45,908 nucleotides of DNA, taken from assembly GCA_031256715.1 (NCBI GenBank), contig JAIRQA010000017.1, positions 1 to 45,908 on the forward strand, given 5' to 3'. Both the position numbers and the translations under genes were made by a program. The DNA is from Coriobacteriales bacterium. Its GTDB lineage: Bacteria; Actinomycetota; Coriobacteriia; Coriobacteriales; UBA8131. Below, piece by piece: positions 17,042 through 31,005 of the stretch. Within the stretch, counting starts at the first letter, position 1, and each line of letters begins with the position of its first letter. The notes below the pieces were generated by a model that worked only from the letters and a program-made list of their open reading frames with translations, ran no database searches and was not told the origin of the DNA.

Positions 17042-18655
17042 TTAATTTGCAGCAGGAACAGGCAAGCTTTCTTTTAGCAAAACCTCGCTTTGAGCATGGT
17101 CATTAGAGCCGCCAAATATACCACTCCAAAACCGCGTCCAACCTATTCCAATCCCCTCAAAAAAATCTGGCGCACTAACCAACCTGTCACTTACCAAAGA
17201 AGCTGTAGCTAAAGCTTCGCCACCTTGTGTCCACACTACGCTACCTATAACCTGACCAGAAACAACTTCCCCTGAAGGTTCATTAATGGTAATCTCTTGC
17301 CTAATATCTCCATGTAAATCTAGTAACTGCACCATTACCGGCTCTGCAACATAGGCTTCTACGCGTTTGTCTAACCAACTTAACAAAGCGACGTCGGCTA
17401 CCTTTTGCGCAGGATTAAGTAACTCTATAGTACGCCAATGCCTAAAGCCCCACTCTAAGAGCAAAGCTGAGTCTATAAAGCGTTGCATCTCTTCTTCCTC
17501 ACCAAAAACTATAGAATATAGCTCTATATCACCATAGATTGCCGCACCCACAAAACAATAGCCTGACTCTTCTGTGTAACCGGTTTTTACACCTAACACC
17601 GTGCCGGTTTCTAATACCTGCCAAAGCTTATCGGTGCTATAAAGCTCAAGCTTAGTATCGCCAACAATAATCTCTTTGTATTCGGTAGCAACAACTTCTC
17701 TAAATACCGGAATACGCATAGCATATTGGGTAAGCTTAAGATAATCTTTTGCCGTTGTGTAGTGGTTTTCTACAGAAAGACCTGAAGCATCTGCGTAATG
17801 AGTTGATGTCATGCCCAGCTCGGCTGCCTTGGCGTTCATCAATTGTGTAAACTTTGCCTCTGTCCCGCTAATATTTTCAGCGATAACTATTGCAGCGTCA
17901 TTGCCGGATGGAATCATTAAACAATCCAAAACATCTCTAAAAGGCAACACCATCTCTGCCTGTAAGCCGGCCTCGGAGCCATCGGCATTTGCGGCGCCTA
18001 CTGTTACTGTCATTGGCGTTTGCAAGCCATTAGCGCGCTGGCCCAGTGCTTCCAAAGCAACAACGGCAGTCATGATTTTGGTTGTAGATGCCATAGGTAC
18101 AGGCATATCGGCACTACGTTCGTAAAGCACCCGCCCATTGCTTGTTCCTAAAGCCGCTTCACGAGCACTGATTGTTGGGATATCGTCTGTTATGTTGCTA
18201 TAAGCAGATAATGGCTTGCTATCAATTAGCTCCTGAGCAGATGTAGCTGCAACAACTGGATTCTGAGCAGAATTTTCGTCTGAAGGCGCATTCACATCTT
18301 CTTCGGGCTGTTGATTTTCAGACAACCCGCTAGCTTCCCCAACAAGTTGCTGATAAGACAGTGGTTGCTCTTGAGCTTGTGTATGGGGTTGCGCTGGATA
18401 CTGCGCTTGAGCTTGAGCTTGTAGCTGGGGTTGCGCTTGTAGCTGGAGTTGCGCTTGAGGCGAAGCTTGAGGTTGCGTTTGCGCTAAAGGCTGCGTTTGA
18501 ATTTGTGTATGCGATTGCGAGGTTCTCTCCTCACCAAAGGCCGCAATTACCGGTGCCAGGAGCACTCCGCCTATTAGCGCTAATGCTAAAAGCACAAGGA
18601 TAATCACACGTACAACAAATATCCAACGCGGTTCTTTTTTGTGTTTTGCTACCAC
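17042..18655 (-). CDS. D-alanyl-D-alanine carboxypeptidase (S11, DacF/PBP5 type)
   Basis: 537 aa. An N-terminal TM/signal helix (about 10-35) is followed by a low-complexity Gln/Ala/Pro linker of about 50 residues (QAQPQLQAQAQ-like) and the S11 peptidase domain. The three penicillin-binding motifs are present: STTK near residue 190 (nucleophile Ser), SGN near 250 and KTG near 355. A PBP5-C-like beta domain ends the protein; no C-terminal anchor is clear. It trims the terminal D-Ala of peptidoglycan stem peptides outside the membrane. The start is GTG 18655 with GGGAAGAG upstream. The Gln-rich linker is encoded by degenerate DNA repeats. Confidence 0.92.
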   Translation of the reverse strand: MVAKHKKEPRWIFVVRVIILVLLALALIGGVLLAPVIAAFGEERTSQSHTQIQTQPLAQTQPQASPQAQLQLQAQPQLQAQAQAQYPAQPHTQAQEQPLSYQQLVGEASGLSENQQPEEDVNAPSDENSAQNPVVAATSAQELIDSKPLSAYSNITDDIPTISAREAALGTSNGRVLYERSADMPVPMASTTKIMTAVVALEALGQRANGLQTPMTVTVGAANADGSEAGLQAEMVLPFRDVLDCLMIPSGNDAAIVIAENISGTEAKFTQLMNAKAAELGMTSTHYADASGLSVENHYTTAKDYLKLTQYAMRIPVFREVVATEYKEIIVGDTKLELYSTDKLWQVLETGTVLGVKTGYTEESGYCFVGAAIYGDIELYSIVFGEEEEMQRFIDSALLLEWGFRHWRTIELLNPAQKVADVALLSWLDKRVEAYVAEPVMVQLLDLHGDIRQEITINEPSGEVVSGQVIGSVVWTQGGEALATASLVSDRLVSAPDFFEGIGIGWTRFWSGIFGGSNDHAQSEVLLKESLPVPAAN

Positions 18656-18748: not shown

Positions 18749-18967
18749 GGTGCGTTCCTAGGGATGTGCCGCTTAATTGCAGATGACCTAAAGATTCAGC
18801 GTTGCGTACTTAAGCTACGTGAGCGAAATCTGAAGGTCGTTTGCTTTAATCGGTGCATTCCTAGGGATGTGCCGCTTAATTGCAGATGACCTAAAGATTC
18901 AGCGTTGCGTACTTAGGCTACGTGAGCGAAATCTGAAGGTCATATGCTTTAATCGGCACATTCCTAG
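18749..18967. repeat. 103 bp tandem repeat, two full copies plus a stub
   Basis: Copy one is 18749-18851 and copy two is 18852-18954, nearly identical. A third start (GGCACATTCCTAG) runs into the stop codon of the ACT-protein gene at 18964. Each unit contains GACCTAAAGATTCAGCG and AGCGAAATCTGAAGGTC as an imperfect inverted pair, so it can fold. Just before it, TTGCTTTTAAATT repeats about three times (18717-18745). Apart from this array, 18656-18963 is gene-free. Confidence 0.9.
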
Positions 18968-19389
18968 TATTCGTACAGGTCTTGGGGAGACAAAAGCTTT
19001 AAGCCAAATTCGGCAGCAACCGCATTTAGTCTCTCGGGATCATCTACACGCACTATATCTATTGCATAACCTTTATTGGTGCTAAAACAATAGGCGTACT
19101 CTAGATTAATGCCGGCAGCATTAAATGTCTCAAGCAAAGAAGCTAATCCTCCCGCCTCGTCAACAATAGACAAGGCATGTACCTTAGTAAGCCTTGCGCG
19201 AAAGCCCGCTTCTTGCAGTGCGTTTATAGCGTCATTTGGCTTATTGGTAATGATGCGTACCACGCCATAGTCTGTTGTCTCGGCAATGACCAAGGTATGC
19301 ATCGAGACTCCCGCATCAGCAAGCACGCGGCAGGCGTCAGCCAAACGGCCCTTGCTATTCTCCAAAAATAGAGTTACTTGATCTATCAT
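18964..19389 (-). CDS. Two-ACT-domain protein
   Basis: About 141 aa. Two ACT domains (about 3-68 and 72-138), small-molecule-binding modules often tied to amino-acid or aryl-acid metabolism. The first starts QVTLFLENSKGRLADACRVL and the second KVHALSIVDEAGGLASLLE. The ORF track opens 46 codons earlier, but ATG 19389 has TTGGAGAC at proper spacing, and the earlier codons read through a MITE-like element. Small ACT proteins of this kind are commonly found beside phenylacetate-CoA ligase genes; here one lies just upstream on the same strand, so they likely work together. Ligand unknown. Confidence 0.85.
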   Translation of the reverse strand: MIDQVTLFLENSKGRLADACRVLADAGVSMHTLVIAETTDYGVVRIITNKPNDAINALQEAGFRARLTKVHALSIVDEAGGLASLLETFNAAGINLEYAYCFSTNKGYAIDIVRVDDPERLNAVAAEFGLKLLSPQDLYEY

Positions 19390-19464
19390 AATTGTCTCCA
19401 ATCCGTCGCTTTGCAGCGGCACAAAAAAGCCATTAAATCTGCATGAGTTATAGCTCAAACTTAC

Positions 19465-19633: not shown

Positions 19634-20977
19634 CTAGCGTAAGTCTATAACGCGTTTAGCTTTACCTTCGCTGCGCTCGATGCTCTTAGGCTCAACAACC
19701 TTAACATCAACGCTAACTTGCAAATTACTTTTTAGCTCGGCAGTAATACGATGCTGCAAGGATTCAATCTTTTTAATCTCGTCAAAGTCGAAGTCTGCAA
19801 CTGTCTCTACATTTAAAGTTACCTTATCTAAAGTATGCTCGCGTGATAGTATAATCTGATAATAGCTTGTTACCTCTGGGAATGCCGCTATCACCTGCTG
19901 GAACTGCGAAGGAAAAACGTTCACGCCACGAATAATAAGCATATCATCTGTGCGTCCGGTTATACGATCCATACGCCTTAGCGTGCGGCCACAGTCACAA
20001 GCTCCAGGTATAATGCGCGAAATATCACGAGTGCGATAACGCAACAATGGCGAACACTGCTTAGATAAAGTGGTAAAGACAACTTCACCCCATTCGCCAT
20101 CTGGCAAAGGCAAAAGTGTCTTAGGATCTACTATCTCTATAATAAAGTGGTCTTCGGCTACATGCAGACCATTCTGATAGCGGCATTCACAAGAAACACC
20201 TGGTCCCATAACCTCAGAAAGTCCATAAATATCTACAACCGTTACACCCAACTTGCGCTCAATCTCTTTACGCATTCCCTCAGAACAAGGCTCGGCACCC
20301 AAAATGGCGCCCGAAATTGGAAAGTCTTTTGCTGGGTCAAACCCAAGCTCTATAGCTGTATCGGCAATTAAAAGAGCATAGGATGGGGTGCAAGCTAAAA
20401 TATCAACACCAAAATCGCGCATCATTTGCACTTGTCTACGAGTATTACCACTGCTCATAGGTAAAATGGTAGCACCAATGCGAATGCCACCCTCGTGCGC
20501 GCCTAAACCACCTGTGAAAAGCCCATAGCCATAAGCAACCTGTAATATACTTTCTGAGCCGCCACCTACCTGCGCAATAGCACGAGCAAAGCAATCGCCC
20601 CAGTTATCTATATCTTGTTGAGTATAACCAACGACTGTGGCATTACCAGTTGTGCCACTAGAAGCGTGCAGCCGTTGCACATTGTCATGCACATTAATGG
20701 CAAATAGGTCAAATGGATAGGCGTCGCGCATATCTTGCTTAGTAGTAAATGGCAGCTTGCATAAATCGTCTAGCGACTTAATATCTTTAGGAGATATCCC
20801 GGCTGCGTCAAGTGCATTTTTATAAAAGTTGATGTTGCTATAACAGTTTGCTACCGTCTCTTGCAGGCGCTTTAGTTGTAAATCCGCTAAATCGCCGGCA
20901 GAAATCATCTCGATTTCCGGCTGAAAATAACGTTCTTTGGTGCCAATCATTCCTACTCTTTTTTTCTCTTCACTCAC
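19634..20977 (-). CDS. paaK: Phenylacetate--CoA ligase
   Basis: A 447 aa adenylate-forming enzyme that joins CoA to phenylacetate or another aryl acid using ATP. The AMP-binding loop is HASSGTTGNATVVGYT near residue 97. YGLSEVMGPG near 250 and the hinge/ATP region YRTRDISRII near 320 follow, then GRTDDMLIIRGVNVFPSQ. The C-terminal AMP-binding domain ends with SEGKAKRVID carrying the late catalytic Lys. Length fits PaaK. The start is GTG 20977 with AAGGAGGG at about 10 nt. No other phenylacetate-degradation genes are here; in anaerobes such ligases often serve aryl-acid products of amino-acid fermentation. Confidence 0.93.
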   Translation of the reverse strand: MSEEKKRVGMIGTKERYFQPEIEMISAGDLADLQLKRLQETVANCYSNINFYKNALDAAGISPKDIKSLDDLCKLPFTTKQDMRDAYPFDLFAINVHDNVQRLHASSGTTGNATVVGYTQQDIDNWGDCFARAIAQVGGGSESILQVAYGYGLFTGGLGAHEGGIRIGATILPMSSGNTRRQVQMMRDFGVDILACTPSYALLIADTAIELGFDPAKDFPISGAILGAEPCSEGMRKEIERKLGVTVVDIYGLSEVMGPGVSCECRYQNGLHVAEDHFIIEIVDPKTLLPLPDGEWGEVVFTTLSKQCSPLLRYRTRDISRIIPGACDCGRTLRRMDRITGRTDDMLIIRGVNVFPSQFQQVIAAFPEVTSYYQIILSREHTLDKVTLNVETVADFDFDEIKKIESLQHRITAELKSNLQVSVDVKVVEPKSIERSEGKAKRVIDLR

Positions 20978-21126: not shown

Positions 21127-24100
21127 TCATGATGTTGACTGCGCCACGACACTTGGCTCGCTAGTTGACGGCGCAGTGTTAACTGGTTGTTGCGTCTGCT
21201 GCTCAGCTGTGTTTGCCTCTGCAGCAGGAGGATCTACACCTGTAGAAGTGTTATCGCTTTCACTTGTTGTCGCTTGTGTTGTTGTTTCTGCAGCATTAGA
21301 CTCTTTTTCTTCCTCAACCTTTTTGGGTCCCTTCTCGACAATTTTATTTGTAGGAGCATACTTAGAAGAAAACGTGTCTTTGCGTACAATATTTCCATCA
21401 GCATCATAAACCGTACGAGTCACGGTTATCGATTTTCCATCTATTCCATCTACCTTAACATACTCCTCACCTGGCTCAAGGTCAGGATTGTCACGCTCTA
21501 TAACCTCGAATTCCTTGCCTTTAACCCACTCACTGGCTTCTGTATAAACAATGTAGCCAGGACTTACGCCCCAAAGTGTAGCTGTTACACTGGTGTTAGT
21601 ATAGCTCATTGTTATCAGCATCCAGTTGCTGGTGTCGTTGCGAAACTTAAGATCGGCATAAGGCCATGCTATTGCAGAATCGCGGCCGTCTGGATATGAA
21701 GAGAGATATAATGAATGATTGATGCGTTCTTCTATAGGCATACCTGCCTCATAGGCACTATTAAAAACAGTAGACGCCACCTGACAAACGCCGCCGCCAA
21801 TCTCGTCTTGATATTCATCATTAATGATCGCCAAATCAGCCTTAAAGCCACGCTCGGCCGTGCATTCGCCCACCCTTTCATTAAAAGACCAAATGCCATC
21901 GGGCTCAATTAAAGAACCATTAATGTAGTCGGCTGCAAGATGAACGTTAATAATGCGATTTTCTTTAGACGTCCAATAATAAGTTGTGAATTCGGCAATT
22001 TTATCGGTTAATTTATATGACTTAGCCTGAGCAGTTGTTAGATTAGGCTGAATACTTCCCATGGGAAGACTTGCGGGACTGCTTGCGTTAGCAAAAACTA
22101 TTTGTGCAAGCTCATCGGCCAATAAAGTATAGTCAATCCCAATGCCATCTTCACTTTCCTGTATTTTAAGTACACCTTCGTCCTCGACAAACTTCGCGTC
22201 TACTGCAGGTACTCCAGGCTGAATATCACCTATGACTGTATCAATAGAGTCTTCTATACTGCTAGCATTAAAGTGTGTTATTAAGCTAGCTTTATCACTA
22301 TATTCGACACTAGCACTTACCCAAGAACGTAAAGTTTCGGTGGGAATGTCGTAGTTCTTCTCGTCATAATTAATACTTACAGGCTTATCTGTTAGCTCTT
22401 GCGTTAGCTCGGCTACCTTTTTAGCATCGCTCATGCTAATTTCTTGTGGTTTTGCCGCCATTGGCGCAACTAGTTCGCGCGTGGTGCTAGTAAAGGCCTC
22501 TGTGAGCATACGCATGAACTCCTGATGATTTACCTCGTATCCGTCGCTGCCAGATACCGCCACAAAAACGTCCTGTGCTTGCTCGTAAGCTATATTGGAA
22601 TTAACCATCTTTGTGCCAACGGCTTCTGTAACCATGCCTTCTAGGTCTGAGAGTCGCGATTTAGAAAAATCAAACTCGGCGGTAAGCTTAACACCAAATA
22701 AATTGCTTGCAAGACGACCTAAGATGAAATCAGAACCGCGTCCAACCTCATAGGCGCGCTCTGCCATAGCATTTGCGTTAAAACTTAAACCAATGCTACT
22801 AGAGTCAACGCGCCACGAACCTGAAGCTTGCGATGGCGCATCGTTTTCGTAAGACTGCACACTGTGACCAAAGTCGAATGTTAGCTCGTTTGTGCCAGTT
22901 TGTTTTGCTTGTTCATTAGCGTAAATAATCACAGGTTCGCTACTGGCATAGGTTGCCAAAGTCTCTGTAAGTTTTTCGGCAGCTTGCTCGCGAGTCATGC
23001 CGCTAAGGTCTACGCCAGAGACACTAACACCTTTGTGAATCACATCCCAGTTTTGTACTGCATCTACACACAGCCAAATAGCACCTAAGACTACAATAAT
23101 TGCAAGCAATATACCCGATAAGAGTAACTTTTTAGGTAGTCGCTTAAAAACGGTGTCGCTTATACCATTACTCTCGCCAATAACATTAACGCTATTGGCG
23201 CCCGCCATGCCCGCAATGGTACTGCGGCCGCTAATAGCATTTGCGCTCCCGGTGCGGCTGGTAAGTATTGTGCCTATGCCACCCTTACGTGTGCCCGATG
23301 CCTCTCTGTTGTTTCTTGGTGCTCTATTTGTTCTGGCTGCCCTATCTGCTCTTGCTGTTTTAGCTGCCCTACTAATTTTGCCTATTGGGCTAGTACTAGG
23401 GCTGCTATAGGTATTGGCTGTAGGAAGCTGAGTATCACGAACAAATCTTGACGAGCGCATAGCGATCTCTGATCGTCGTGCAGAAGCTCTACTGCTTTGT
23501 GACGACGCCGCGCGAAAGTTGCTGTTTATACCTAACTCTGAGCCGCCATTGTCGTTCGCGTCATTGCCGGTTTCTATATGGCCAAGATAGCTATCTGCAC
23601 TATTACGACTGGTGCGGCTATCATAACTAGCGCGTCTAGTACGTCTACTAGTTGTACCTGACATGGCAAATGTGCCAAAATTGGTTGATGATCCTGACAA
23701 AGTTGACCTATACGACCTGCCAGACATCATAGTGTCACCCATTCCGACTGCAGGCTTGCCTCTGTCGCTGCCAGACTCTTGCATACCAGCATCATTAGAG
23801 ATAGATAGCGCTCGCCAAACATAAATGCCGCCAGAAGTAAGAGAAAGGATGGCGCCAAGATACAAAAGCAAAAGTCCAAGACCAAGCTCTGTAGTGTCTG
23901 AGATACTAATTATTGGCCAATTAAGAATCTGAAGACAAAACCCTACCATGACTACAGCAGTAGTTAGTTTTCCCAAAAAAATAACCTCGAACTGCCTATC
24001 ATGCCGAGCGCGTAGATAAGCAACAACTGCTAGCATAATAGCATCTCTAGAAACAAGAATTAAAAGTAGCCATAGTGGCACTCTGCCAACGATAAAGACA

Positions 24101-24357
24101 GCTATAACGCCAGCAATTATTAAAATGCGATCAACCAAAGGGTCAAACTGCTGCCCAAGTTTAGATACAGACCCAGTAGCTCTAGCTAATTTGCCATCTA
24201 GAAAATCTGTAGACGCGGCAATAGCAAAGACAAAAAAGGCCGCAATAGAGTTATCCCAAAATACCAGCAGCACAAAGAAAAGCGGCACCAGCAGCAACCG
24301 CAGCAGCGTGACAAGATTGGGGATTGTAAGGATTCTATCTGTTGGCTCGAAAGTCAT
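21127..24357 (-). CDS. Fusion: CDP-alcohol phosphatidyltransferase (PgsA-type) + VanW/YoaR envelope protein
   Basis: About 1076 aa in one open frame. Residues 5-190 are a PgsA-like transferase with the full catalytic signature TDFLDGKLARATGS...GQQFDPLVDR (D-x2-DG-x2-AR-x8-G-x3-D-x3-D). A Ser/Arg-rich, probably disordered linker (about 200-390) follows. A TM helix (LLLSGILLAIIVVLGAIWL, about 400-420) leads to two YoaR/PG-binding-4-like domains and a VanW domain (about 770-900; NVHLAADYINGSLIEPDGIWSFNE, DEIGGGVCQVAST). A G5-like domain (DGKSITVTRTVYD...NKIVEKGP) and a Thr/Gln tail end it. ATG 24357 is the natural PgsA start; the ORF track's TTG 24519 is unlikely. No SD is seen, but TATAAT lies 9 nt upstream, so a leaderless mRNA is possible. 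Confidence 0.88.
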   Translation of the reverse strand: MTFEPTDRILTIPNLVTLLRLLLVPLFFVLLVFWDNSIAAFFVFAIAASTDFLDGKLARATGSVSKLGQQFDPLVDRILIIAGVIAVFIVGRVPLWLLLILVSRDAIMLAVVAYLRARHDRQFEVIFLGKLTTAVVMVGFCLQILNWPIISISDTTELGLGLLLLYLGAILSLTSGGIYVWRALSISNDAGMQESGSDRGKPAVGMGDTMMSGRSYRSTLSGSSTNFGTFAMSGTTSRRTRRASYDSRTSRNSADSYLGHIETGNDANDNGGSELGINSNFRAASSQSSRASARRSEIAMRSSRFVRDTQLPTANTYSSPSTSPIGKISRAAKTARADRAARTNRAPRNNREASGTRKGGIGTILTSRTGSANAISGRSTIAGMAGANSVNVIGESNGISDTVFKRLPKKLLLSGILLAIIVVLGAIWLCVDAVQNWDVIHKGVSVSGVDLSGMTREQAAEKLTETLATYASSEPVIIYANEQAKQTGTNELTFDFGHSVQSYENDAPSQASGSWRVDSSSIGLSFNANAMAERAYEVGRGSDFILGRLASNLFGVKLTAEFDFSKSRLSDLEGMVTEAVGTKMVNSNIAYEQAQDVFVAVSGSDGYEVNHQEFMRMLTEAFTSTTRELVAPMAAKPQEISMSDAKKVAELTQELTDKPVSINYDEKNYDIPTETLRSWVSASVEYSDKASLITHFNASSIEDSIDTVIGDIQPGVPAVDAKFVEDEGVLKIQESEDGIGIDYTLLADELAQIVFANASSPASLPMGSIQPNLTTAQAKSYKLTDKIAEFTTYYWTSKENRIINVHLAADYINGSLIEPDGIWSFNERVGECTAERGFKADLAIINDEYQDEIGGGVCQVASTVFNSAYEAGMPIEERINHSLYLSSYPDGRDSAIAWPYADLKFRNDTSNWMLITMSYTNTSVTATLWGVSPGYIVYTEASEWVKGKEFEVIERDNPDLEPGEEYVKVDGIDGKSITVTRTVYDADGNIVRKDTFSSKYAPTNKIVEKGPKKVEEEKESNAAETTTQATTSESDNTSTGVDPPAAEANTAEQQTQQPVNTAPSTSEPSVVAQSTS

Positions 24358-25071
24358 AGATACATAATTATAGCGTAAATGGCGTATATAGAAATGGCTG
24401 GTTAAGTCAACGCTGCGAATCTTTGTTAACGGTTTGGTTAAGAGATTGTTTGTCGCCACCGGAAGCCCAGAATTAAATCTGGACAACCGATGGCTATATC
24501 CCCCACCTAGGGATATCAAAAAAATACCAGCGCCATGCCTTGCTATTACCTAAATAAAGCAATTATTTGGTCATCTTAGAAGCAAGTTTAGCAGTAAGCT
24601 TAAAGCGAACTTGCAAGCAAATGCACCGGTAAGCTAAACCAACCAATAATCATTTTAGCACTTAATTAGTTAATGTCTAGTGCCAAAATTCACAACTTGC
24701 ACACTTCATAACTCGTACACATACCGCTTTTGCACCGCTATAGCGCACGCAAATGTGCAAGCCCCCCGCCCACTTCGCGTACCACCCACCACATAAGGGA
24801 CGCTGTGAACAGCGTCCCGTACAACAATTTGTAGTTAGTGCTGATGGTTTTTTCCGTCTGGCGGGACGCTGTGGACAGCGTTCCGTACGTCAATTCGCTT
24901 AATACCTGAACTGTTTCCTTCGTAGGGGACGCTGTCCACAGCGTCCCGCATACCAATTTGCATAAGCCTGAACTATTTTCTCTTTGCATCCCCTTTAAAA
25001 ATGGGGCTACTTACACAAAGCATACAGCCTTCAGCTGCAGCCTGCAAAAGCATACAACCTACAGCCTGCAG
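24358..25071. other. Gene-free gap with tandem repeats
   Basis: 24358-24796 holds no convincing gene. 24797-24975 holds the three-copy palindrome array listed separately. 25020-25075 has a degenerate duplication of CATACANCCT/GCCTGCAGCT units. The 83-codon ORF at 24738-24989 is a by-product of the repeat. Confidence 0.6.
24797..24975. repeat. About 64 bp tandem repeat containing the 22 bp palindrome (copies 2-4)
   Basis: The palindrome GGGACGCTG...CAGCGTCCC recurs at 24797-24818, 24863-24884 (one mismatch, GCGTTCC) and 24926-24947. The intervening 40-odd bases are related to each other (CAATTTG..., ACCTGAACTGTTTCCTT), so this is a tandem array and not a CRISPR. The central 4 bases vary (TGAA, TGGA, TCCA). 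A fourth genomic copy lies at 124-145 beside the group II intron. Confidence 0.88.
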
Positions 25072-25500
25072 CTACAGAGCCTCGGCAGCTTTTTTTGCCT
25101 TTGCGGCAGCCGCCACCTCGGCGCGTTTCTTTGCCTCTGCCTCGCGCAACTCCTTCTGCTCGTCTGAAAGCACAAAGCTTTGCTGCGTCTTTTGTCTTGC
25201 CGCCGGCGCATACTCAGACTTCATGCTTAAGCAGTTTTTGGGGCAATTGCGCACACAGATGTAGCATTGCACGCAGCAATAAGGATTAATGCTCCAGGTA
25301 GTTGTACTTTTATTAACACTAATGGCAGCTGCAGGACATTTCTTCTCGCAAATAGAACAGAATATGCAGCTATCTATGTTATTTTCTATATGACCTTTGG
25401 TCATCTGAAAGTATTGTGGCTTCTCTATTGGATACAATTTAGTAGCTGGCTTTTTAAAAAGATTGCGCAAAGACATCTTGCCTAGCATAAATGATGGCAT
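25072..25500 (-). CDS. echF: Ech hydrogenase subunit EchF, 2x[4Fe-4S] ferredoxin
   Basis: A 142 aa polyferredoxin subunit, related to NuoI/HycF, that passes electrons from ferredoxin to the small subunit. Two motifs, CIFCSICEKKCP (about 42-53) and CCVQCYICVRNCP (about 74-86), bind the two clusters. The C-terminus is an Ala/Lys/Glu-rich helix. ATG 25500 has AAGGAGG upstream. It is the last gene of the echA-F operon, 13 bp after echE. Confidence 0.9.
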   Translation of the reverse strand: MPSFMLGKMSLRNLFKKPATKLYPIEKPQYFQMTKGHIENNIDSCIFCSICEKKCPAAAISVNKSTTTWSINPYCCVQCYICVRNCPKNCLSMKSEYAPAARQKTQQSFVLSDEQKELREAEAKKRAEVAAAAKAKKAAEAL

Positions 25501-25513
25501 ATCTTAGTCCTCC

Positions 25514-26602
25514 TTAGCGTTCCGTACAACTAATACAGGGGTCTATGGTTAGCACGTTAAGTGGCACGTCCTGAAGGTCACAGCCTTGTAGTGTTGTTGT
25601 CATGCCGCCAATATTTTGTGACGTTGGTGTGCGTATACGAAAACGATCCAGGAATTTGGTACCATTGCCTTTGGCGTAATAAAAACATTCACCGCGCGGT
25701 TGTTCCAGTCTAGATACTGCAAATGAACCAGCGGCAGGACTACCTTTTGGTGCAACGTTCACAGGAGTATCAGGGATTTTCTCTACCAATTCCTTAACGA
25801 TATCCATAGATTGCAAAACTTCCAGTGCCCTAACCTCAGAGCGACCATACCCGTCGCCAGCCTCACTAACAACAGGCTCAAAGGCAGCTAGCGCACCATA
25901 TGCCCCATAGCCATAGTTGCGAATATCTTCTGTAATGCCAGATGCGCGCGCAAAAGGTCCAACAACACATAACTCTGTTGCCTGTTGTTTAGATAGATAG
26001 CCAACATCGCAAAGTCGCGACTTTACAGAGCGATCGCCCAAAAAGACCTTTAGTAACTCATTATACTCAGACTTCATACCATCCAACACCAAAATAATGC
26101 CGCGAAGATCCTCGTCACTAATATCTTGATAAACGCCGCCAACGCAACAAGCAGACAAAATGACGCGACCGCCAGTGGTCTTCTCAAAAATATCTAAAAT
26201 GCGCTCGCGCAAACGCCAACACTGCATAAAGAGATTTTCGAAGCCAAAGGCATCGGCCAAAAGTCCCAGCCAAAGCAGATGCGAGTGAACACGCGAAAGC
26301 TCGTGCCAAATAACACGTAGGAATTCAGCGCGGCGCGGCACCTCGATGCCCATTAAGGCTTCTACTGTTTGCGAGTAGCCAAGCGAATGCCCAAAGCTAC
26401 AGATGCCACAGATGCGCTCGGTTATGCTCACGTACACCTGAAAGTCGCGTTTCTCTACCAGCTTCTCTAAACCACGATGCACGAAACCAATCTGCGGAAT
26501 AGCCTCAACGACTTTCTCGTCCTCGACAACAAGATCAAGATGCACTGGCTCAGGCAACACAGGATGCTGCGGTCCAAAGGGGATAACAGTTCTTTTACCC
26601 AT
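25514..26602 (-). CDS. echE: Ech [NiFe]-hydrogenase large subunit EchE
   Basis: A 362 aa catalytic subunit of a group 4 membrane hydrogenase. Both nickel-ligand motifs are intact: RICGICSFGHS near residue 63 and the C-terminal DPCISCTER. That excludes a NuoD-type protein, which lacks the Cys ligands. The protein stops directly after CTER, with no C-terminal extension. Extension-free large subunits are known for Ech and CooH types and avoid the usual maturation protease. The start ATG overlaps the echD stop (TAATG) and has GGGGAGG upstream. Confidence 0.95.
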   Translation of the reverse strand: MGKRTVIPFGPQHPVLPEPVHLDLVVEDEKVVEAIPQIGFVHRGLEKLVEKRDFQVYVSITERICGICSFGHSLGYSQTVEALMGIEVPRRAEFLRVIWHELSRVHSHLLWLGLLADAFGFENLFMQCWRLRERILDIFEKTTGGRVILSACCVGGVYQDISDEDLRGIILVLDGMKSEYNELLKVFLGDRSVKSRLCDVGYLSKQQATELCVVGPFARASGITEDIRNYGYGAYGALAAFEPVVSEAGDGYGRSEVRALEVLQSMDIVKELVEKIPDTPVNVAPKGSPAAGSFAVSRLEQPRGECFYYAKGNGTKFLDRFRIRTPTSQNIGGMTTTLQGCDLQDVPLNVLTIDPCISCTER

Positions 26603-27453
26603 TATTCAACCTCCCCTGCCTCAAGTTCCTCAGGAGTGGCAACATCGCCTGACCCTAAGTCACAAATTGCAAATTCTGTTTTAACTGGCTCTACAAACTG
26701 CTGCAATGTCTTCGTAGTCGTTGAAAAGGACACACTGCCAACCGCTAAGACTGCTGGCGCTTTAAGCGCTTCTGAATCTTTACTTGTTACATCTGATTTA
26801 AATTCTTTTGGTGTTAACTCTGAACTTAACGAAGCATCAGCAGAATTTACAGCTAGCATATTGTCATACTCGCTTACTAGCTTAGTAACATCGTTGCTTG
26901 CCGGGTTCATAGGCGAAGGCACGCTGACGTCATAAAAATGACCTCCAAAATCTATGGCCATGCCCTTAATTGGCACACCAAAAAGATCATGTGTCTCGTT
27001 CTCGAAAACAAAAGCATTAAAATAAAGGTCGCTGACAGCAGGAACTTCTTCGCCATTGTTAACCACCAAACGCAAATTCTCTAGCTTATCGCGATTGCCA
27101 AACGAATAGAGTAGTTCGACGCCACCATCTACAGTAGAACCACAAAGATTCACAAATCGCCAGCCACGTTGATGATAAGCCTCTGCGCGACCACGTAATT
27201 GTGTAAGCTTAATATCAGTAAAAGATTGTGGAGCTATATTTTTTGGTTCAGCTATCTCTTGAGGCTCGCTTGCAGTTTGCAAATCGCTTGTTGCCTGCAC
27301 ATCACTTGCAACTTGCACATTGCTTGTTGCCTGCACATCACTTGCAACTTGCACATCGCTTGTTGCCTGCACATCACTTGCAACTTGCACGTCACTTACA
27401 GTCTCGTCTAATGAGTGAGCCACATTGCCTGTTAAACTTAAAGTATCAGTCAT
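26602..27453 (-). CDS. echD: Ech hydrogenase subunit EchD (NuoC-like), with added N- and C-terminal extensions
   Basis: 283 aa, longer than the usual EchD (about 120-150 aa). The 30-kDa NuoC-like core occupies about 75-195: RGRAEAYHQRGWRFVNLCG, and ETHDLFGVPIKGM with the conserved HD-FG. The N-terminus has a 12-residue repeat (DVQVASDVQATS) encoded by a 36 bp array. The C-terminus adds about 90 residues rich in Ser/Glu with no known domain. ATG 27453 has AGGAG and overlaps the echC stop by 8 bp. The core couples the ferredoxin-type subunits to the large subunit; the extensions are unexplained. Confidence 0.85.
   Translation of the reverse strand: MTDTLSLTGNVAHSLDETVSDVQVASDVQATSDVQVASDVQATSNVQVASDVQATSDLQTASEPQEIAEPKNIAPQSFTDIKLTQLRGRAEAYHQRGWRFVNLCGSTVDGGVELLYSFGNRDKLENLRLVVNNGEEVPAVSDLYFNAFVFENETHDLFGVPIKGMAIDFGGHFYDVSVPSPMNPASNDVTKLVSEYDNMLAVNSADASLSSELTPKEFKSDVTSKDSEALKAPAVLAVGSVSFSTTTKTLQQFVEPVKTEFAICDLGSGDVATPEELEAGEVE
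27286..27393. repeat. 36 bp in-frame tandem repeat in the echD 5' end
   Basis: Three copies begin at 27286, 27322 and 27358. Each encodes 12 residues of the DVQ-rich N-terminal extension. The copies differ by only a few bases, so the expansion looks recent. Confidence 0.9.
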
Positions 27454-28039
27454 TGTTTGCTCCTTCCTGCCGATCAGTTACACTAGCCAAAGCTTTAGAC
27501 GCTTCACGTGCTTTTGTAAAAGCGGCGTCGCGCACACTTACGCCATCTACAATCTTATTTGCAGAGCTAAGTCCACTGGCTAAAACAGGCTTCTCTGCCA
27601 GCTTGCCACCAGTTGCCGCAAAAGCAGCGCGTTTCTCTTCTAATACACCAAGGCCGGCAACAACAGCATCTATAATAGCTTGAGGACGCACCGCACAACC
27701 TGGCGCATAGATATCTACCGGAATTGCGACATCAACGCCACCAAGATTGTTGTAGCAGTCTCTGAACACTCCGCCAGAACAAGCACAGATGCCGCAAGCT
27801 ATAACAACCTTAGGTTCTAGCATTTGCGAGTAAATCTGTTGCAGAACGCCAATGTTGCGTTCATTAACCGACCCCGTCACCAAAAAAATATCAGCATGCT
27901 TAGGGTTGCCGGTATTAATTATGCCAAAGCGCTCAACATCGTAAAGCGGTGTTAGACAAGCCAAAACTTCAATGTCGCAGCCATTACAGCTAGAGGCATC
28001 GTAGTGTATAAGCCAGGGTGATTTTATCGTCGATGACAT
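27446..28039 (-). CDS. echC: Ech hydrogenase small subunit EchC (NuoB-like)
   Basis: 197 aa. Binds the proximal [4Fe-4S] cluster that feeds the NiFe site. Cys ligands are visible in SSCNGCDIEVLAC near residue 17, ACGICACSGGVFRDC near 88 and YAPGCAVRPQAI near 120. A C-terminal tail of about 60 residues beyond the core is longer than typical. ATG 28039 has TTAGGAGG at good spacing. Sits between echB and echD, in canonical order. Confidence 0.93.
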   Translation of the reverse strand: MSSTIKSPWLIHYDASSCNGCDIEVLACLTPLYDVERFGIINTGNPKHADIFLVTGSVNERNIGVLQQIYSQMLEPKVVIACGICACSGGVFRDCYNNLGGVDVAIPVDIYAPGCAVRPQAIIDAVVAGLGVLEEKRAAFAATGGKLAEKPVLASGLSSANKIVDGVSVRDAAFTKAREASKALASVTDRQEGANND

Positions 28040-28048
28040 TTGTGCCTC

Positions 28049-28930
28049 CTAACCCAGATATCCAAGTACAATTAAATATATTATATTTAGCAAGCAGCAA
28101 ATAATGGTCACCGTCCAAGACCAAAAAAGCATTGCCTGCCACTTTACGCGCGCAAAAGTATTGTCTATGAAGACCTCTAGAAAATAAATTAATAACACAG
28201 CAATAATAACAACAGGTATCGCTAACATGGTATTCCAAATAAAGAATAGCGCCACCCAGCCCATAAAAAGGATGCTTTCGTACCAATGGGTTATCTCTAC
28301 CAAAGCTAAAGTGCGTCCACTCATTTCGGTGGTGATACCTTTAACTAGTTCTTGATGCGCATGATGAGAATAACTTAAGTCAAAAGGCGATTTGCGCAGC
28401 TTTATAGTAAGAATGAAAAGAAAAGCGGCAAAGACCAAAGGTAGCGTTGCTACCAAGGGCAGATCGCGGTTAAAAACTTCGCTAACATTAAAAGTGTTGG
28501 TTGCCATGAAAAATGTGACACAAAGCAAAATGGTCATAGGTTCATAGCTAGCTATCTGAATAATCTCGCGCTGAGCGCCGGCATCGGCATAAGGCGATCG
28601 GGCAGAATATGCAGCGATAATGAAGAACAGCGACGACAGTGTTAGCACAAAAAGTACCAAAAGAAAGTTGCCACCGGCAAAGAAAAAGACACCGGATAAA
28701 ATCGCAAACGCCAATGACAAGACAATATAAAATTCCTGATAACCATTAACCGAACGATTCTCTTTAGCAAGCAGCTTGCGCACATCATAATATGGCTGCA
28801 AAAGCACAGGTCCAACACGTCCTTGTAAGCGTGCGCTAACAATGCGATCGACACCAGCTAACAAACACCCCAATACCGGAGCAAATATAACAAAGCCAAC
28901 TAAGGCAACGGCAAAAGAAATAATGGTCAT
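28049..28930 (-). CDS. echB: Ech hydrogenase membrane subunit EchB (NuoH-like)
   Basis: 293 aa, about eight TM helices. The NuoH/HycD family anchors the hydrophilic arm and forms part of the ion path. Conserved elements include ARLQGRVGPVLLQPYYDVRKL near residue 33, SPYADAGAQREIIQ near 115 and KLRKSPFDLSYSHHAHQELV near 180. The ORF track opens 39 codons earlier, but ATG 28930 has TTTGGAGG at 6 nt and forms an ATGA overlap with the echA stop. The longer version is an overlap artefact. Confidence 0.94.
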   Translation of the reverse strand: MTIISFAVALVGFVIFAPVLGCLLAGVDRIVSARLQGRVGPVLLQPYYDVRKLLAKENRSVNGYQEFYIVLSLAFAILSGVFFFAGGNFLLVLFVLTLSSLFFIIAAYSARSPYADAGAQREIIQIASYEPMTILLCVTFFMATNTFNVSEVFNRDLPLVATLPLVFAAFLFILTIKLRKSPFDLSYSHHAHQELVKGITTEMSGRTLALVEITHWYESILFMGWVALFFIWNTMLAIPVVIIAVLLIYFLEVFIDNTFARVKWQAMLFWSWTVTIICCLLNIIYLIVLGYLG

Positions 28931-31005
28931 AGCACACCTCCAAATCCAACATAAATCGCAATTGCACCTAGAACCATTACCGCAATTACTAAGACATTCG
29001 CAAACGATGTCATGACCTTCTCGCCAAAAAGAGACTCCATATACCAATTGCGTTGCGTGCTAACACTGGTAGTACTTAAAGCGTTTATAAAGCTTCGCTT
29101 AGAAGAGTCTATGCCTACGCCACCAAGATAAATGCTTGACGTTGGCTCTTTTGGACGACGCAAGAATTTAATAGCAAATACAATAATCAAAGCAAGGGCG
29201 ATAGTTGCCATTATCAAAAGGTCGTTAAAGCCTATGGCTGCACGTAAATTACTATTTTCGCCAACAATAGCTCCAGGCAACGAATATGTACTTATAGTAA
29301 TCTCTGCCCAGCTTGAAACGTCACCTGAAAACCCGCTGGCAACAGCGCTAAGATAAGGCACAACTACTCCCTCAGATACCCAAGGTAAGCCAATTGCCAA
29401 CCCAACAGCTAGCAAAGACATCAGCCCCAGCGCAAACCATTCGCTTTTATGAATATGGTGTTCGGTATTGCTGCCGCCCTGAGCCACCGCCAACACCTTG
29501 CCCAGCCACTTTGCCCAAAACACGAAAGTCAGCGCCGAGCCAAAAGCCAATAAAAATAGCAATGGGATATTGCCCGTATCTACCATGGTAACAATAGTTG
29601 CCCATTTAGAAATCAACATGCCAAAGGGAGCGATGAACATGCAAAACATTCCCAATGCCATTAACAAAGCTAAGCGTGGCAAGCGCGTAAATATGGCATC
29701 CATGTCTTCGATATCACGACTGGCAATATGATGTTCGGCAGTTCCAACACAACAAAAGAGCAAGGACTTTGCAGCCGCATGAAAGATTAAAAGAAAAATG
29801 GCTGCCCAGACTGCCTCAGGTGTACCAACACCGGCGCAAGCCACAATTAGCCCTAAGTTAGCCACAGTAGAATAGGCCAACACACGCTTGGCATTGCTTT
29901 GCGAAATTGCCAACGCAGAACAGAAAAAGAACGTTAGGCCACCAACAAGGATTACCACAAGACCATTAAGGTTAAAGGCAAAAACCGGAGCGAGCTTAAT
30001 AAGAATAAAGACTCCCGCCTTTACCTTTGTCGAGCTATGTAACAATGCACTAGTTGGTGTAGGCGCAACCATAGCTCCCAAAAGCCAAGACTGAAAAGGC
30101 ATCTGCGCTGCCTTGGTAAAGCCAGCCAGGCTTAAAAGCAAAACCGGCAGCCCCACAAGCCCTATGCCGCCATTTAATGAACCAAAGGCGATAAGGCGAT
30201 CTAGTTCTAATATCTTAATATCATGCGAGCTTAATAGCATAAGCGCCATCACGAAGCCAAGGCCACCAATAAGGTTCATGACTATTTGTCTAAAGGAGTT
30301 ATCTATTGCCTCGCGCGTTCGTGTGTAGCCAATTAACGCAAACGAGCAAACAGTAGTAACTTCCCAGCCACAGAGCAACCAAGTTAAGTTGTTAGAGAAA
30401 ACTATCATATACATGGCAGACAAAAAGACAAACATGAGCGCAAAGAAAATATGGCGTCTGTCTTTTGCATGATGCTCTAAAGCTTGGTAGCCTGAATCTA
30501 GCCTGGCATGGTGATGAGTTGCAGCATGCTGCTCTAGATGATGCTGAAAGTCTCGCATATAGCCCACTGCATAAATGCAAATCCCTGAGCCTATGATACC
30601 TATGACTAAAGCCATAATCACCGAGAGTTGATCGATATAAAGGTCGTTTTTAACCTCAACATCATGTGCTGCGCCAAATTCTAAAATAAGCACAAACACA
30701 AGCTGCAAGGCAGCAAGAAAGACAGCTAGCGGCTTTGAGTTACGAGCGCCTTTAACAAGTACATAAAGACAGCAAATACAACTTACAGCCACAGTGGCAT
30801 AACTAATTATCTCGCTATAAGGAGCAGGGATCTTTACGTATATTCCTGGCGAGAATAGATACAAGACTGCCAAAGCCAAAGAACCCAACATAGTTAAGGA
30901 ACCAGCACCTATAACAAGCGGGGCACGAACACGATCGTTTCTTACCACTAAAAGCAGCAATGCTGCCAACAGGGGTAGAGTAATTAGAAATCCAACAATA
31001 ACCAC
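28927..31005 (-). CDS. echA: Ech hydrogenase proton-translocating subunit EchA (NuoL/MrpA-like)
   Basis: 692 aa, about 16 TM helices. An antiporter-like subunit thought to move protons or Na+ during H2 formation. Conserved features include the Glu of WLLCGWEVTTVCSFALIGYT near residue 215, a Lys-containing helix (LAGFTKAAQMPFQSWL near 295) and LLHSSTKVKAGVFILIK near 320 with family-type His/Lys. A His-rich loop (EQHAATHHHARLD) near residue 160 is notable. The start is GTG 31005 with AGAGGAGG upstream. It is the first gene of the operon. Confidence 0.94.
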   Translation of the reverse strand: MVIVGFLITLPLLAALLLLVVRNDRVRAPLVIGAGSLTMLGSLALAVLYLFSPGIYVKIPAPYSEIISYATVAVSCICCLYVLVKGARNSKPLAVFLAALQLVFVLILEFGAAHDVEVKNDLYIDQLSVIMALVIGIIGSGICIYAVGYMRDFQHHLEQHAATHHHARLDSGYQALEHHAKDRRHIFFALMFVFLSAMYMIVFSNNLTWLLCGWEVTTVCSFALIGYTRTREAIDNSFRQIVMNLIGGLGFVMALMLLSSHDIKILELDRLIAFGSLNGGIGLVGLPVLLLSLAGFTKAAQMPFQSWLLGAMVAPTPTSALLHSSTKVKAGVFILIKLAPVFAFNLNGLVVILVGGLTFFFCSALAISQSNAKRVLAYSTVANLGLIVACAGVGTPEAVWAAIFLLIFHAAAKSLLFCCVGTAEHHIASRDIEDMDAIFTRLPRLALLMALGMFCMFIAPFGMLISKWATIVTMVDTGNIPLLFLLAFGSALTFVFWAKWLGKVLAVAQGGSNTEHHIHKSEWFALGLMSLLAVGLAIGLPWVSEGVVVPYLSAVASGFSGDVSSWAEITISTYSLPGAIVGENSNLRAAIGFNDLLIMATIALALIIVFAIKFLRRPKEPTSSIYLGGVGIDSSKRSFINALSTTSVSTQRNWYMESLFGEKVMTSFANVLVIAVMVLGAIAIYVGFGGVL

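Follow-up and report, generated by a model that had tools for sequence, protein, structure and literature searches.

VanW proteins were identified in 2024 in Clostridioides difficile as a second family of L,D-transpeptidases, and the C. difficile enzymes combine a transmembrane anchor, PG4 domains and a Cys-His-small residue triad (PMC12729407, PMC11986978). Transpeptidase activity is missing from some VanW proteins (PMC12729407). ClsA, the CDP-alcohol-type cardiolipin synthase of the Streptomyces coelicolor type, is credited in PMC8027125 to Sandoval-Calderon et al. 2009. In Rhodobacter sphaeroides, cardiolipin has been tied to cell shape and to the synthesis of peptidoglycan precursors (PMC6381277). 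The DNA analysed here, referred to as the window, is a 45,908-nucleotide contig of a draft Coriobacteriales MAG (78% complete), and it encodes a CDP-alcohol phosphatidyltransferase domain and a VanW module in a single protein. Both component families are known; the architecture, suspected to be undescribed when only the letters had been read, appears new, since no description of it turned up in the open-access papers searched.

The window protein resembles LdtCd4 and LdtCd5 of C. difficile in its membrane anchor, its PG4 domain and a VanW domain whose Cys and His are conserved, but differs from them by an extra G5 domain, a low-complexity tail and an N-terminal lipid synthase. With actinobacterial ClsA it shares the CDP-alcohol motif, six helices and the best NCBIfam match, and it falls on the same side of the tree as the ClsA-type copies of Cellulomonadaceae and Arenivirga. 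Unlike actinobacterial ClsA, it stays under the NF053678 cut-off and carries a fused external module.

The fused cls-vanW gene occupies positions 21127..24357 of the minus strand, on which the -10-like box, the domains and the neighbouring genes located below also lie, and encodes 1,076 residues. The sequence-only reading had placed a complete CDP-alcohol transferase and a complete VanW/G5 region in one open frame, and this was confirmed by Pfam matches and by the same frame in ten other genomes. Both modules lie in one unbroken frame, which is open over 21127-24519, from a TTG at 24519. The ATG at 24357, also taken as the start in that reading, is the likely start of the gene, because the residues upstream are not common to the family and a TATAAT, a -10-like box by consensus match only (24367..24372), stands just upstream, 9 nt before the ATG. 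Boxes resembling TATAAT were also seen near the starts of the fused copies of G005, G018 and G023, and the fused gene likely has a leaderless mRNA start.

According to Pfam, the domain order is CDP-OH_P_transf (residues 10-168, 2e-31), PG_binding_4 (PF12229; residues 515-622, 6.7e-9; 22492..22815), VanW (PF04294; residues 800-929, 1.1e-41, full profile, 141.8 bits; 21571..21960) and G5 (residues 949-1012, 4.4e-8; 21322..21513). The lipid domain as a whole, ClsA-like with six predicted helices, comprises residues 1-194 (23776..24357), and its catalytic motif, DxxDGxxARx8Gx3Dx3D, is present in full at residues 51-76 (24207-24130). A single predicted transmembrane signal anchor (residues 409-435; 23053..23133) is flanked by KRLPKK on its cytosolic side.

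An AlphaFold2 model of the fused protein, built with 37 related sequences, contained six helices at residues 12-194, disorder at 196-407 and one helix at 409-435. The outer part was well predicted to about residue 1016. The mean pLDDT was 77.5, with most domain blocks >90. The modelled lipid domain resembled solved CDP-alcohol enzymes (best match, S. aureus PgsA) and the C-terminal end matched G5 domains of solved structures; the VanW domain had no match among solved structures. A CDP-alcohol fold should have its end on the cytosolic side. Because of this, and because the linker is basic and KRLPKK lies on the inner side of the anchor, the wall module is predicted to lie outside. With this topology, one chain can hold both an enzyme that faces the cytosol and a module that is exported, without conflict.

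In the wall module, the catalytic candidates Cys858 of the GGGVCQ motif (21786-21784) and His881 (21717-21715) were invariant in seven aligned fused copies. GGGxC was present in nearly all relatives, the exceptions being truncated copies or products of simple pattern matching elsewhere. The protein shows the features of the VanW L,D-transpeptidase family, namely a VanW domain with Cys and His, PG4 and a transmembrane anchor, and the probable role of the module is that of a Cys/His L,D-transpeptidase working on peptidoglycan. Its score against NF033128, the VanW glycopeptide-resistance accessory protein, was below the cut-off (64.6 vs 365 bits), and no resistance role is implied. Two VanW proteins were found in the genome, and only the fused copy keeps the Cys; two YkuD transpeptidases are encoded as well, and VanW is thus not the sole candidate. 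The second VanW protein (L004:1189-2223, on G000:C115) reads GGGVAQ, with Ala for the catalytic Cys, and is probably a non-catalytic paralogue.

A search for the same architecture in related genomes returned ten besides that of the window, so that the unbroken fusion is now seen in 11 genomes (G000, G002, G005, G010, G018, G020, G022, G023, G065, Gx481_bin10 and Jx357_bin18). At least six uncultured Coriobacteriales genera carry it, the nine genus-coded fused copies representing six genera. Within the set of 41 genomes, both genes were present in 30, as one frame in 8 and as two frames in 22; three fused copies (Gx481_bin10, Jx357_bin18 and G065) lie beyond this set. No further stop-free frame of cls and vanW appeared among the matches listed for a class sample of 100 genomes. 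In G138, the 892-aa frame that contains cls proved to be extended upstream and to lack VanW. The named close relatives of the window genome are Coriobacteriales/Coriobacteriia MAGs, presumably from termite or cockroach guts to judge by their isolate codes.

The state of G013 was scored as unknown, since its two pieces both run off contig ends. On this basis the concatenated tree of both domains required 2 changes, or 1 without G004. A clade of the fused copies and G013 that excludes G004 was strongly rejected on the tree; G004 is therefore a nested split, and one fusion followed by one split in G004 is the simplest history. The fusion is genuine and inherited; it puts known parts together in a new way and does not amount to a new kind of system. 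Two explanations had been named in advance as speaking against a fusion, a sequencing error and separate adjacent genes in relatives. The first did not survive the finding of the same frame in 11 genomes. The second describes what most relatives have, and since the two genes are adjacent there, the fusion is, as far as gene arrangement tells, a derived state in which two members of an old operon have merged.

The linker, earlier described as basic and rich in Ser/Arg, spans residues 196-407 (23137..23772), is predicted to be disordered (pLDDT below 50) and has a net charge of about +15. Among the fused copies, linkers range from 88 to 224 aa and show little sequence conservation, and their net charge is always positive (+11 to +28). 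In a comparison of G005 with Gx481, dN/dS was 0.43 for the linker and 0.19 and 0.14 for the flanking domains, and the sole gap in the linker was a whole-codon gap of four residues; this shows that translation passes through the linker in the frame given here.

In other Coriobacteriia, cls and vanW are separate genes with the same gene order and with domains orthologous to those of the fused gene. They differ from it in having two frames with a stop between them, the basic region being on the VanW N-terminus. In the two-gene genomes, cls stops soon past its last helix, vanW starts at or near the cls stop, and at the VanW N-terminus the anchor is usually preceded by a stretch rich in Ser, Arg and Lys. 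By this comparison, the linker of the fused protein reads as the cytosolic N-terminus of stand-alone VanW plus the junction. The spacing was the same in six genomes (L178-L183) of family f2, which we take to be Eggerthellaceae-like: the cls stop is always TAG, and the vanW ATG follows 3 nt later in the same frame. One substitution at this TAG would yield the fusion, and we infer the same route for the group of the window. Read-through of the TAG in the Eggerthellaceae-like genomes was rejected in favour of stop-start coupling, which is simpler given the ATG 3 nt on and a stretch resembling a ribosome site, seen in most of these genomes though weak in G051.

Taken as a whole, the gene probably encodes a membrane-spanning cardiolipin synthase/L,D-transpeptidase, merged from old operon neighbours and encoded near a D,D-carboxypeptidase. 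The N-terminal six-helix module would condense CDP-diacylglycerol and phosphatidylglycerol into cardiolipin on the cytosolic face, and a disordered, positively charged tether would lead to the single signal anchor, which would place PG4-VanW-G5 outside. There, VanW would serve as the presumed cross-linking enzyme, and the full-length protein would stay intact in the cell. The merger would have taken place in a subgroup of uncultured Coriobacteriales, between neighbours whose stop and start were a few bases apart, probably by stop-codon loss or a small frame change. As first proposed, a lipid enzyme facing the cytosol and a wall module that is exported are joined in a genuine and conserved fusion, which would couple lipid synthesis to the envelope. 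Gene fusions often point to functional partnership. More tentatively, and with more doubt than confidence on our part, cardiolipin synthesis inside and L,D-cross-linking outside may be physically coupled in the one protein, so that cross-linking would occur where cardiolipin is made (e.g., at poles or division sites) and the basic linker would hold the protein to anionic lipid.

A neutral merger accounts for the data almost as well as coupling under selection does, and we place its probability a little short of even. Under this explanation, which keeps the same domain identities, the stop between abutting genes was lost and the modules remain independent, perhaps through linker cleavage or internal initiation, so that the linkage has no function. 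Such a course is in keeping with the origin of the pair as an old operon with abutting ends, with the renewed split in G004, where neither gene was lost, and with the variable length and poor sequence conservation of the linker. It sits less well with the retention of a single frame across at least six genera and with linkers that are net positive without exception. Nor was an internal start for a separate VanW conserved across the fused copies, and candidates in the window were near background; possible internal ribosome sites near the linker were present in the fused genes of G018, G022 and G023, from which VanW might also be produced on its own. Promoter matches inside the fused gene were no better than in shuffled sequence.

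The reading as a cardiolipin synthase/L,D-transpeptidase further depends on the product of the lipid domain, which the sequence-only reading had called PgsA-type. Membership of the CDP-alcohol phosphatidyltransferase superfamily is clear (PF01066, 109.9 vs 22 bits). The domain scored 115.6 bits against ClsA (NF053678, cut-off 240 bits) and 94.9 bits against PgsA (TIGR00560, cut-off 109.1 bits), so that ClsA outscores PgsA with both cut-offs missed, and the domain was left outside the ClsA equivalog class for this reason. Actinobacterial ClsA-type references likewise scored under the NF053678 cut-off (172-181 bits). In the tree, whose references were named by profile score only, the lipid domain grouped with the actinobacterial ClsA-type proteins and PgsA was split off at 100/99, which argues against the PgsA-type identity; the PgsA proteins of the rimO locus grouped with Bacillota PgsA.

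The suggestion that this might be the only PgsA of the cell also had to be abandoned. The second pgsA that was looked for is present in the same genome, at the rimO-pgsA-cinA locus (G000:C92), and is a canonical PgsA scoring 144 vs 109.1 bits. The two proteins share the CDP-alcohol superfamily. In contrast to the window lipid domain, the PgsA of the rimO locus belongs to the other clade, exceeds its cut-off and forms a fusion of its own with CinA: at L001:1468-2799 it shares one frame with a nicotinamide-nucleotide amidase domain of the CinA/PncC type. In many relatives, too, pgsA lies in a frame of similar length.

The distribution of the alternative enzyme supports a history in which one type of cardiolipin synthase took the place of the other. 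Of 41 relatives, 3 (G030, G035 and G040) have a phospholipase-D-type cardiolipin synthase; it was found in none of 25 genomes of the window's family and in 4 of 151 genomes of the order (the same three and G146). Across these 151 genomes, a ClsA-like gene was absent only in G030, G035, G040 and G140; G039 was counted as having one, present though cut by a contig end. The phospholipase-D type thus occurred in 3 of the 4 genomes lacking ClsA vs 1 of the 147 others (chance probability about 3e-5, calculated by hand as a simple count that ignores relatedness). G146 has both types, and G140 has neither over threshold. The lipid domain is most likely a cardiolipin synthase. That it makes a different product, for instance as a second phosphatidylglycerophosphate synthase or as the source of a lineage-specific phospholipid, and is fused to the VanW module in that capacity, appears improbable to us: the two missed curated cut-offs and the structural match to S. 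aureus PgsA would allow it, but the ClsA-type clade, the near-complementary distribution relative to the phospholipase-D-type synthase and the separate canonical PgsA speak against it.

An assembly or frameshift error, or a missed stop, is exceedingly improbable as the cause of the join and is ruled out for the group, since against the draft, incomplete state of the MAG stand the 11 genomes with the same open frame, including differently named isolates, the purifying selection on the linker in the close pair G005 and Gx481, and the clade-wise distribution of the fused copies on the tree.

The surroundings of the cls-vanW fusion are themselves conserved. The order hydrogenase cluster - cls - vanW - paaK-like - ACT - S11 D-Ala-D-Ala carboxypeptidase recurs across many Coriobacteriia, a class common in animal guts. 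In the window, a hydrogenase/complex I-like cluster lies upstream (25072..31005, with the genes at 27446-31005 assigned by synteny only). Downstream follow a phenylacetate-CoA-ligase-like (paaK-like) gene (19634..20977), a gene with a pair of ACT domains (18964..19461) and the S11 D-Ala-D-Ala carboxypeptidase (17042..18655). Some Coriobacteriia lack vanW or paaK-ACT from this order; in Slackia, cls and the carboxypeptidase remain but vanW is absent. Since the tetrapeptide donors for L,D-transpeptidases come from D,D-carboxypeptidase (PMC11986978), the cluster is functionally coherent. Together, the fusion and the widespread predicted operon suggest that cardiolipin synthase, VanW transpeptidase and D,D-carboxypeptidase form one envelope module in Coriobacteriia, and they open to test a connection between cardiolipin in the membrane and 3-3 cross-linking.

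Two further observations concern these genes and their surroundings. In MAG RUG12554 (L119:5806-7734), a ClsA-like frame runs on into an S11 D-Ala-D-Ala carboxypeptidase; the last helix of its lipid domain looks cut, so a frameshift or an assembly join, and not a true fusion, may account for the long frame. The window also contains four near-perfect palindromes, GGACGCTGTNNACAGCGTCC, at 24798-24946 and 125-144, against a chance expectation of 0.01. Three of the four stand in tandem with a spacing of about 65 nt, in the stretch that separates the fused gene from the hydrogenase cluster.
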